Source of the DNA: Bacteriovoracaceae bacterium
GTDB taxonomy: Bacteria; Bdellovibrionota; Bacteriovoracia; Bacteriovoracales; Bacteriovoracaceae
Reading direction: 5' to 3'
NCBI GenBank assembly: GCA_018675575.1
Contig: JABGXW010000048.1
Coordinates: 1 to 64,000, forward strand
DNA: 64,000 bases
This document shows positions 49,383-56,248 of the stretch, one piece after another. Made by a program: the position numbers and the translations under genes. The notes beneath the pieces are model-generated. The model saw nothing but the letters and a program-made list of their open reading frames with translations, had not been told where the DNA came from and made no database searches. Each line of letters begins with the position of its first letter. The first letter of the stretch is position 1.

Positions 49383-50036
49383 TTATAATTTTTTTAATTC
49401 TGCTCTTATCTCCATCCATATTATATTATATTTCCAAGCAGGAGGAGCATCTTTTTCCACTTTATGGTCAGGAATCAAGACTAAGCCTTTAGTTCTGAGA
49501 AGAATGTCTTTTACATTCTTGTTTTGCAAAACTTTTGCCCACATTATCTTCTTTATTAAATTATAATGCTCGCCTTTCTTATGAGTGTTATAAGTCATTC
49601 TTTTTCCCTTATAAGTCACCCAGTTGATATTATTTGCTTTCATTATTTTAGAGGCAAGTGAACCGGCTTTTTTAGCTTCATAGGCTATCATCTTTTCAAC
49701 TTCTAATCGGGTATGATCCCATTTGGTATTTTTTAAGAGAAATCGTTTATCTTGTCTGGTCTCAGGATATTTCATTGATTGCCATAGTCCCTCAACCGAT
49801 TGATAAGTCCGTCCTTCAAATTTAAAAGGAGTATGTGCAAAGTTTGATAATAAACCTAGTTGATTTCTTTTTGAAAGTACGACCTCTCCTGACTTTACGT
49901 CCTGGGGAAGTACTTCCCACCATTTTGCAGAAGTTTTATCTACAGATTTCCACCAGATGGCAGGGTAACCCTTCTCTGATGAAAGAGCTGAAAGACAAGC
50001 CCCAAGAAGTATGCTTAAAAGCAGTAACTTAGACAT
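49383..50036 (-). CDS. Exported NADAR-domain protein
   Basis: 217 aa from the ATG at 50036 (a TTG one codon earlier is also open; AGGAG fits the ATG). The body is a NADAR domain: LSNF (63-66) with F.FEGRTYQSVEGLWQSMK (73-89) and a C-terminal PPAWKYNIIWMEIR. NADAR enzymes act on ADP-ribose derivatives, e.g. removing ADP-ribose from guanine or acting on riboflavin-pathway intermediates, and normally stay in the cytoplasm. Here a signal sequence comes first (SKLLLLSILLGAC, a lipobox-like LGAC with Cys14; alternatively cleavage after LSALS), so the protein should be exported. That is unusual and suggests a target outside the cytoplasm. Confidence 0.8.
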   Translation of the reverse strand: MSKLLLLSILLGACLSALSSEKGYPAIWWKSVDKTSAKWWEVLPQDVKSGEVVLSKRNQLGLLSNFAHTPFKFEGRTYQSVEGLWQSMKYPETRQDKRFLLKNTKWDHTRLEVEKMIAYEAKKAGSLASKIMKANNINWVTYKGKRMTYNTHKKGEHYNLIKKIMWAKVLQNKNVKDILLRTKGLVLIPDHKVEKDAPPAWKYNIIWMEIRAELKKL

Positions 50037-50159
50037 CAATATCTCCTTTTAATGGATTATGCCCCAAGAAAGATCAATATAAAAGAGTTAGACACCTTGC
50101 CCTTTAGAAATCGTGATCTTTTAGGTATAGTGCAAAAAACTAAGACGGAGAGATGAATT

Positions 50160-50390
50160 ATGGCCGCTAAATGTAAGTTTTGTGGAAATGAAATTTTTTG
50201 GATGAAAGATGGACGCAAGAACGTGCCCCATGAACTTGATGGCGGAAAGCATAGTTGTGAAGAAATGCAAAAAGCAATAAAATCAACTGTCAGTATGTCA
50301 CCAAGTAGCTTATCCCCAGAAGAAATAGCAAAATACGAAGCTCAAATAAATGCTGCTGCGAACAAGGCAAAAAAGCAATCTGTAGAGTAG
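50160..50390 (+). CDS. Small zinc-ribbon-like protein
   Basis: 76 aa. The N-terminus has CKFC (residues 5-8) and the distant HSC near residue 31-33, as expected of a single zinc-binding site; FWMKDGRKNVPHELDG between them is a phrase I associate with small cytoplasmic zinc-ribbon proteins. The rest is Ala-, Ser- and Lys-rich. A GGAG site precedes the ATG. Function unknown. Confidence 0.65.
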   Translation: MAAKCKFCGNEIFWMKDGRKNVPHELDGGKHSCEEMQKAIKSTVSMSPSSLSPEEIAKYEAQINAAANKAKKQSVE

Positions 50391-50475: not shown

Positions 50476-51381
50476 ATGATACGTACATTTCAATCAGAGC
50501 TTAAAAAATATAGACCCTGGAAAATTCTCAAGAAAGAACTTCTTAAGGATATGTTTCCCAACATCAAAATACATATTGGCCATCTCAGCTATTATGACCT
50601 TATATCGGTACTCGTTAATTCAGAAGGTGAACCTATAGCACTTAAAGACAATCAAGCTGATACAAAATCATTTATGGCATTTACTGAAGATAGCCTCCTC
50701 AATAGAATTGCCGATTCCTACTCTGAAGAAGAAATACTCAACGCCAATTATTCAGACCTCTGTCTTCCACAACATCACCTAAGAACTTTTATGGTTGGCG
50801 ATCTTATAAAATACCTTTCTACCAATACGAAAGTTAAAAGCATTAAGATAAATCCCGTTCTCTTTAGTTCAGACAATTTCGACAAGAATCTTTATTTTTG
50901 TGAAGATGTTATCTTTGCACCTATTTTCGACACTATCACGCAGAAATATATGATGACCGATCCTGACCAGGCACTAGCACTTCTTTCGATAAAGACAAAA
51001 GATATGGAAAGGTTTGGAATTGAAATAACCTTTCATGCCATAACAAATTCAGACCTTTCTGAAGAAAAGGAAAGTAGACAGGTCACTATTAAAGAAAAAA
51101 TTGAAGAATTGGCGTTCTGTGTTCCTCGATTACCAATTAAAAGAGGATCAGCTTCTATCTATTGTGTGATTCTAAATCTTGACAATGAAATGGAGGAGAC
51201 GGCATTCATCAGAGACTATAAAACTTTTGATAAACATTCCGACGTCATTTTTCTCAATTCAAACCTTGAAATTAAAACAGGTCAACTTGAACAAATTGTC
51301 TATGATGGTGAAATGATCGATACTATCTTCACTCCCATTATTGAATGGCAAAGAAAAAAGCATCAAGATCTTTGGAAGTAA
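50476..51381 (+). CDS. Protein of unknown function
   Basis: 301 aa, no signal peptide and no membrane helix, so cytoplasmic. Mixed alpha/beta, with the phrases YYDLISVLVNSEGEPIALK and DYKTFDKHSDVIFLNSN. I recognise no family or catalytic motif. A GAGGT-type ribosome-binding site precedes the ATG. It stands alone in plus orientation; the codon use is like its neighbours. Confidence 0.65.
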   Translation: MIRTFQSELKKYRPWKILKKELLKDMFPNIKIHIGHLSYYDLISVLVNSEGEPIALKDNQADTKSFMAFTEDSLLNRIADSYSEEEILNANYSDLCLPQHHLRTFMVGDLIKYLSTNTKVKSIKINPVLFSSDNFDKNLYFCEDVIFAPIFDTITQKYMMTDPDQALALLSIKTKDMERFGIEITFHAITNSDLSEEKESRQVTIKEKIEELAFCVPRLPIKRGSASIYCVILNLDNEMEETAFIRDYKTFDKHSDVIFLNSNLEIKTGQLEQIVYDGEMIDTIFTPIIEWQRKKHQDLWK

Positions 51382-55450: not shown

Positions 55451-56248
55451 ATGCAAAATAATTATTATATTCATAACATTAATCCTTTGGCGATTGAGAT
55501 CGGAACATTCACACTTCCATGGTATTGGCTCGTTTACTTTGTTGGACTGCTATGGACATTATTTATGGTCCATAGACTCAACAAAGAGCTAGATCTAGGC
55601 CTTTCCAGTAAGGATGTAGCTGATTATTTTCAATGGTCATGGATCTCTTTATTTTTTGGCGCCAGACTATTTTATATTCTTGTTTATAATTTAGATTTCT
55701 TTCTACAGCATCCACATATGATCCCCAAAATTTGGTTGGGTGGAATGAGTTTTCATGGGGCGCTGCTAGGCATAACGTTCTCACTTTACTTCACTGCTAA
55801 ATGGAAGAAACAAGACTTTCTCTTAATAGGAGATTGTATTGCAACAGTGGCACCCATGGTTTTGGGCTTTGGAAGAATTGCCAATTTTATTAATGGAGAG
55901 CTGGCAGGAAGAGCTGCTAGCGTACCTTGGGCGGTCATCTTTCCGCGCTATAAAGATGGAATACCTAGGCACCCCTCACAACTTTACCAAGCCATTCTGG
56001 AAGGCTTTATTTTATTTTTTATTTTACGGTATTCTAGAGGGAGAATTAAAAGTCATCGAGGCCATCAATCATCAATTTTTCTGATAGGTTATGGAATTGC
56101 CCGATTCGTAGTTGAATTTTTCAGAGAAGCAGATCCTCAGCTTGGTTATTATTTTCTGGGCCTAACTATGGGCCAACTACTCTGTCTAGCAATGATCCTT
56201 ACAGGGGCCTATCTGATTACTCGTTCCTCAAAGTCGAAGAGCACCTAA
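55451..56248 (+). CDS. lgt: Prolipoprotein diacylglyceryl transferase
   Basis: 265 aa integral membrane enzyme with seven hydrophobic segments. The Lgt signature is FGRIANFINGELAGR, together with the N-terminal LPWYWLVYFVGLLW and the LRPHPSQLYQ phrase (RHPSQLYQAILEG). It adds diacylglycerol to lipobox cysteines, the first step for every lipoprotein called in this window. A TATAAT box lies only 4 bases before the ATG, too close to be a normal promoter. Confidence 0.95.
   Translation: MQNNYYIHNINPLAIEIGTFTLPWYWLVYFVGLLWTLFMVHRLNKELDLGLSSKDVADYFQWSWISLFFGARLFYILVYNLDFFLQHPHMIPKIWLGGMSFHGALLGITFSLYFTAKWKKQDFLLIGDCIATVAPMVLGFGRIANFINGELAGRAASVPWAVIFPRYKDGIPRHPSQLYQAILEGFILFFILRYSRGRIKSHRGHQSSIFLIGYGIARFVVEFFREADPQLGYYFLGLTMGQLLCLAMILTGAYLITRSSKSKST

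Follow-up and report, generated by a model that had tools for sequence, protein, structure and literature searches.

The window, that is, the whole stretch of 64,000 nucleotides analysed here, encodes a protein of the NADAR family which is predicted to be exported as a lipoprotein. Its role is best read, with about an even chance of being right, as that of an extracytoplasmic (ADP-)ribosyl N-glycosidase acting in nucleic-acid breakdown. The NADARs covered by the papers found are considered intracellular enzymes which erase either ADP-ribose from guanine or soluble ADPr signals. No exported, secreted or periplasmic NADAR was found by exact-phrase search of the open literature or by term search of the two main NADAR papers. 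The fold and the chemistry are of a known kind, and what appears to be new, as far as the searched open literature shows, is an exported branch with a mixed Asp and His active site, a private extension and a linkage to nucleases.

The open reading frame was found where the initial annotation had placed it, on the minus strand at 49383..50036. It runs from an ATG at 50036 to a stop codon ending at 49383 and was defined, from the sequence and its homologues, as a coding sequence of 217 amino acids. An AGGAG Shine-Dalgarno sequence is located 6 nt 5' of the ATG (50043..50047, minus strand). A TTG at 50039 is an alternative start which would add one residue; as it lies only 3 nt from the ATG, the choice of start leaves the signal unchanged.

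The N-terminus reads MSKLLLLSILLGAC-LSALSSEKGYP and displays Lys3, an uncharged h-region (residues 4-13) and the lipobox L11-G12-A13-C14 (LGAC; 49995-50006, minus strand). The n-region charge, the h-region and the lipobox with its cysteine, all features of bacterial lipoproteins, are present, and the segment is predicted to be a textbook type II signal peptide (residues 1-13, followed by Cys14; 49995..50036, minus strand). The lipobox type is kept in the near relatives L004, L005, L006, L007, L009, L011 and L012. A gene for an Lgt-like prolipoprotein diacylglyceryl transferase was recognised by sequence elsewhere in the window (55451-56248, plus strand). Lgt is the enzyme which lipidates lipobox cysteines, suggesting that the organism processes lipoproteins.

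Conservation of the signal was investigated by genome comparison. In a first search the family was present in 35 of 97 genomes (41 copies), and a signal peptide ending just before the motif YPxxWW was seen in all 40 readable N-termini. Among GTDB contigs 159 relatives were confirmed, and 80 of these were fetched for comparison; signal peptides were again detected in nearly all of them, in many cases with a linker that separates the lipobox cysteine from the domain. With a simple hydrophobicity rule, which was also positive for 50% of the neighbouring ORFs, a signal-peptide-like segment was scored directly before YPxxWW in 104 of the 106 readable distinct N-termini, roughly half of which include a lipobox. 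Given this background the rule alone is weak, and the weight rests on the uniform position and the charge pattern of the segment. The type of signal varies between lipoprotein and SPase I across several phyla, while export is kept. Cysteine makes up 0.16% of the mature domains and is absent from 81 of 106; the corresponding values are 1.19% for soluble proteins encoded nearby and 2.07% for the cytosolic phage protein gp30.3. In the AlphaFold model the pLDDT is 73 and 64 within residues 1-20, rises to 89 in residues 21-30 and is about 96-99 beyond, which places the hydrophobic stretch outside the confidently folded domain. The initial annotation had proposed a secretion signal with a possible lipobox at Cys14, and had named two findings that would make export unlikely: relatives starting downstream of the hydrophobic stretch, or a stretch belonging to the folded domain. 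The opposite was seen in both cases, as the relatives start upstream of the stretch and the stretch precedes the fold. Together with the exported nucleases which adjoin the gene in relatives, these data speak well for the proposed extracytoplasmic action of the protein. Export of the family is well supported, and the window protein would be a lipoprotein anchored in the membrane, with its NADAR-fold domain active in the periplasm or extracellularly.

Searches with curated models placed the window protein below the respective cut-offs. The best Pfam match was PF08010 (Phage_30_3; E 3e-7, 30.8 bits against a cut-off of 36, which some relatives reach), and weaker scores were obtained with PF08719 (NADAR; E 6.5e-5, 23.7 bits against 35.1) and with TIGR02464 (riboflavin N-glycosidase; 2.1e-6, 28 bits against 73.7). 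PHROG 652 matched at 8e-12, whereas the model of the anti-phage defence NADARs (DS32_2, NF053876) scored 14.3 of 240 bits. Membership of the NADARs rests on the predicted fold and on profile comparisons. An AlphaFold2 model (m08bb6b90daa2) built from 39 family members reached a mean pLDDT of 94.4. The only confident Foldseek matches in the PDB were E. coli YbiA (2b3w, ranked first, E 3.5e-5) and the Phytophthora NADAR-ADP-ribose structure (8bau, E 1.4e-3), both with a probability of 1.00. The matches in the viral library were headed by proteins of phages and giant viruses, many of them named NADAR. Profile-profile comparison (hhalign) over the core gave E 6e-14 with YbiA-type NADARs and E 1.5e-17 (probability 98.9) with gp30.3. 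Taken together, the model, Foldseek and hhalign define a NADAR/YbiA core at about residues 58-211 (49404..49865, minus strand), and the protein is predicted to represent a divergent branch remote from known NADARs. The NADAR domain named in the initial annotation thus holds at the level of fold and profile, whereas the curated Pfam cut-offs are not reached, so that automatic annotation may miss members of the family.

Active-site residues were assigned by alignment to the published catalytic map of NADARs (E43/E88, K50/K95 and a last-strand acid at the place of E125; PMC11543638). Glu82 (codon 49791..49793, minus strand) is the equivalent of the catalytic E43 of P. nicotianae and E88 of the E. 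coli C7 NADAR, and is present in 107 of 107 family domains. Lys89 (49770..49772, minus strand) corresponds to the phosphate-binding K50/K95, of which K95 is essential to guanine-ADPr hydrolysis by the E. coli C7 NADAR (PMC11543638). The motifs LSNF (63-66) and YQSVEGLWQSMK (78-89) are intact in the window copy, as had been claimed, but this does not extend to the whole family: Lys89 is kept in 78 of the 107 domains and replaced in 29, by Leu in 24. Asp190-His191 (49464..49469, minus strand) occupy the place of the last-strand catalytic acid, where YbiA has Glu, BC4488 has Asp and phage NADARs have His. Asp190 is invariant (107/107) and His191 nearly so (104/107), the three exceptions being L087 and the first, apparently degenerate domains of the tandem fusions L106 and L111. 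The predicted active site is thus strongly constrained, while the lysine essential to antitoxin NADARs is optional. Its loss suggests that ADP-ribose may not be the ligand of all members, and a substrate shift within the family may have occurred. In the mature protein the core is preceded by an N-terminal extension which is specific to the family (about residues 22-57; 49866..49973, minus strand), with the pattern YPxxWW...WE(I/V)xP...VxLSKR. In the alignment of 107 domains it is conserved as strongly as the active site, with W28, W40, E41, S55 and K56 present in all.

A maximum-likelihood tree separated the 102 exported members from YbiA-type and phage proteins by one branch (90/93). In IMG/VR, 63 pattern matches were obtained, none of which was confirmed as a family member, and tblastn against INPHARED gave only remote gp30.3/YbiA-like matches, none covering 80% of the query. 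On the basis of these two viral collections, a phage origin of the family was rejected.

Relatives in the GTDB contigs come from many Bdellovibrionota and, sporadically, from other groups (Acidobacteriota, Planctomycetota, Verrucomicrobiota, Ignavibacteria and Sumerlaeota); a few belong to MAGs with odd labels. The family was found in 90 of 291 sampled Bdellovibrionota genomes (87 strong matches), representing 50 of 162 genera. Only 3 of 199 sampled Acidobacteriota genomes matched, one of them weakly and one being the genome on which the sample was centred. One matching chromosome of 3,782,950 bp is presumably that of Bdellovibrio bacteriovorus HD100. Its copy is located at 1944545-1945318 on the minus strand and codes for a predicted lipoprotein of 258 aa with the N-terminus MAKTTFVSLFVLLTAFLVSC. 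Two other matching genomes were taken as those of Halobacteriovorax marinus SJ (3,435,933 bp; PMC5760749) and B. bacteriovorus Tiberius (3,988,594 bp; PMC3539863). The link to predation raised by the initial annotation does exist, though not as an exclusive one: the host belongs to the Bdellovibrionota and cultured predators carry the gene, but members in Acidobacteriota, Planctomycetota, Verrucomicrobiota and Ignavibacteria show that the family is not exclusive to predators.

At the window locus the NADAR gene ends 22 bp before serS. This arrangement is absent from the congeners G001 and G002, where an FtsH-like gene adjoins NADAR instead, and the serS operon was dropped as a functional clue. 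Divergent from the NADAR gene are a small Zn-ribbon-like gene (50160-50390, plus strand) and a gene for a 301-aa protein (50476-51381, plus strand); the larger one is kept in both sampled congeners and the smaller one in one of them (L065 has both, L068 the larger only). There is no nuclease gene adjoining the window copy. By sequence, the source genome also exports S1/P1 and EEP nucleases, encoded away from the NADAR locus.

A linkage to nucleases was found in relatives. Operon-like neighbours, defined as genes on the same strand and within 60 bp, were tallied by Pfam (62 neighbours). The commonest family was that of the Exo_endo_phos (EEP) nucleases, encoded immediately upstream of the NADAR gene at 8 loci, and Phosphodiest/nucleotide pyrophosphatases (NPP) accounted for 5 of the 62, immediately downstream. 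Both displayed export signals by sequence. An S1/P1 nuclease, a Na+-nucleoside transporter and a ureide permease were single cases. As all EEP and NPP cases are confined to one clade of the tree, they were counted as one conserved operon; the window copy belongs to another clade.

Three further links are independent of this operon. In L099, the gene of an exported S1/P1 nuclease overlaps the start of NADAR. Two acidobacterial loci (L106:6027-8618 and L111:6009-8600, both plus strand) encode an exported protein in which an S1/P1-like domain is joined to two NADAR domains; Lys89 and His191 are both missing from the first NADAR domain. Upstream of the L106 fusion there is a gene for a ureide permease. 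The label 'S1/P1-like' is based only on motif order (W..H, D, H, HxxxDxxxxxH, H) and on a sub-threshold Pfam match (E 0.005), and the AlphaFold pLDDT of this domain is 33. Finally, proteins of the UDG superfamily adjoin NADAR at 9 loci dispersed across the tree; judged by sequence, those at 8 loci carry a signal peptide and that of L120 does not. PF03167 was above its cut-off in L071, and the nearest PDB entry was 5gn2 (Blr0248; E 0.018), which we take to be the structure of BdiUng from B. diazoefficiens. The BdiUng enzyme has been described (PMC8307549). An exported DNA-glycosylase-like protein is unusual in itself. In Bdellovibrionota, exported UDG-superfamily proteins of 600-900 aa with the motif KILFxGQD(G/A)THxA recur beside the exported NADAR; UDG-like genes are located at L071:7711-10113 (-), L073:7688-10405 (+), L099:4380-6944 (+), L063:6887-9484 (-) and L102:5279-7753 (-). 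No relative of this protein was found in the source genome. Other exported NADAR fusions were also observed: in L057:331-1860 (+) the domain is followed by some 300 residues of unknown type, in L132:853-2076 (+) it is preceded by an unknown exported domain, and L142:8001-9011 (+) has an extra C-terminal domain.

The shared theme of these neighbours points to nucleic-acid and nucleotide breakdown outside the cytoplasm. From fold, active site and neighbourhood we infer both the catalytic activity and the substrate of the exported NADAR: it would hydrolyse an N-glycosidic bond in nucleic-acid-derived material, probably that of (ADP-)ribosyl-guanine, and free ADP-ribose (or ribosyl-phosphate) from a base such as guanine. 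This hydrolysis would be one step in extracytoplasmic nucleic-acid breakdown and salvage. In relatives, the exported nucleases would cut the polymer, and the nucleotide pyrophosphatases would split ADP-ribose into AMP and ribose-5-phosphate. The window copy, with no nuclease beside it, would do the same job as its nuclease-linked relatives. Nuclease export by Bdellovibrio is known and the recycling of prey nucleic acids has been proposed (PMC3593177, PMC7925074, PMC12546842). A bolder and more speculative proposal, which we regard as possible although rather doubtful, is that bacteria including predators have a dedicated extracytoplasmic pathway for ADP-ribosylated or base-modified nucleic acid, made up of three exported enzymes, a nuclease, the NADAR base-glycosidase and a nucleotide pyrophosphatase, with exported UDG-like proteins. 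In that case ADP-ribosylated nucleic acid would be a real extracellular or prey-derived substrate. The presence of the family in the model predator B. bacteriovorus and its linkage in relatives to exported nucleases raise two directly testable questions: whether ADP-ribosylated or base-modified nucleic acid occurs outside the cytoplasm, and whether predators include a base-processing step in their recycling of prey nucleic acid.

The same data allow other explanations. In the periplasm the enzyme could act not on nucleic acids but on NAD itself or a small soluble derivative of it, such as ADP-ribose or cyclic ADP-ribose, for salvage or for signal destruction. NADARs have been predicted to be active on soluble ADPr derivatives (PMC9503650), and the downstream NPP-type pyrophosphatase at 5 loci would suit the breakdown of ADP-ribose or NAD; however, the genes which recur beside the family encode nucleases and UDG-like proteins rather than NAD enzymes, and the phosphate-binding Lys is not conserved, which makes this explanation unlikely. 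ADP-ribose would not be the substrate at all if the protein acted as an N-glycosidase on another nucleotide or on a riboflavin intermediate, like the RibX-type YbiA of plants and bacteria. The below-cut-off match to TIGR02464 and the fact that a quarter of the family lacks Lys89 would fit with this, but riboflavin intermediates are cytosolic and out of reach of an exported protein, and we consider it improbable. Equally to be weighed is a defensive role, in which a surface or periplasmic eraser would shield the producer or the prey compartment against secreted toxins of the ADP-ribosyltransferase type: NADARs of the cytosol serve as antitoxins against DarT1 and YarT (PMC11543638, PMC11125620), and secreted guanine ARTs are known (ScARP and Scabin; PMC11125620). 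The DNA of the producer is cytoplasmic, though, no ART was among the commonest neighbour families and PADLOC gave no match, so that such a role seems quite improbable. A cytoplasmic enzyme, whose N-terminal segment would be a cytoplasm-facing anchor only or a mis-called start, is highly improbable: start misassignment is possible and the hydrophobicity rule has a high background, but the conservation across phyla, the n-region charge, the placement of lipobox or AxA and the next in-frame ATG, GTG or TTG, which falls within the conserved domain in the window copy and most relatives, speak against it, and the mis-called start was ruled out by the signal conservation in relatives and the cysteine depletion.

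Compared with known NADARs, the exported family is closest in Pfam to gp30.3 (PF08010), a cytosolic protein of T4-like phages. Both share the last-strand His and the SNF and EG(F/L)xQ motifs, and gp30.3 of an E. coli phage hydrolyses guanine-ADPr in vitro (PMC11125620). Unlike the exported family, gp30.3 has no signal peptide and no WW/WE extension, displays K or T at the place of Asp190 and is cysteine-rich. The DarT1-associated NADAR antitoxins (BC4488 subfamily) resemble the exported family in the Asp at the last-strand catalytic place and, by description, in an N-terminal extension before the core (PMC11543638), but differ in that the present family is exported. No DarT adjoins the window gene and none is among the families shown for the 62 operon-like neighbours of relatives; a DarT-type toxin-antitoxin system was ruled out, as there is no ART beside the gene or among the commonest neighbour families. 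YbiA/RibX-type NADARs (PF08719, TIGR02464) have the fold and the active-site Glu and Lys in common with the exported family, and the EHT of YbiA aligns to its DH; they differ in the last-strand Glu, which is Asp here, in the export and in the scores below cut-off. The source genome has a second NADAR of this Glu-containing YbiA type (G000:C120:6208-6615 (-); L064:6166-6741 (-)), with a hydrophobic N-terminus ending in Cys, MLQKFSIYIVIGIMMLVTSNC, in which the Asn at -1 is atypical. Its orthologues L168-L174 carry clear lipoboxes or signal peptides. These exported YbiA-type lipoproteins of Bacteriovoracaceae (L001, L168-L174) are thus like the window protein in combining a NADAR domain with a signal peptide or lipobox, but form a separate branch of the tree (99/96) with a Glu-type active site. 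From these sequences, export of NADARs appears to be found in two separate branches.
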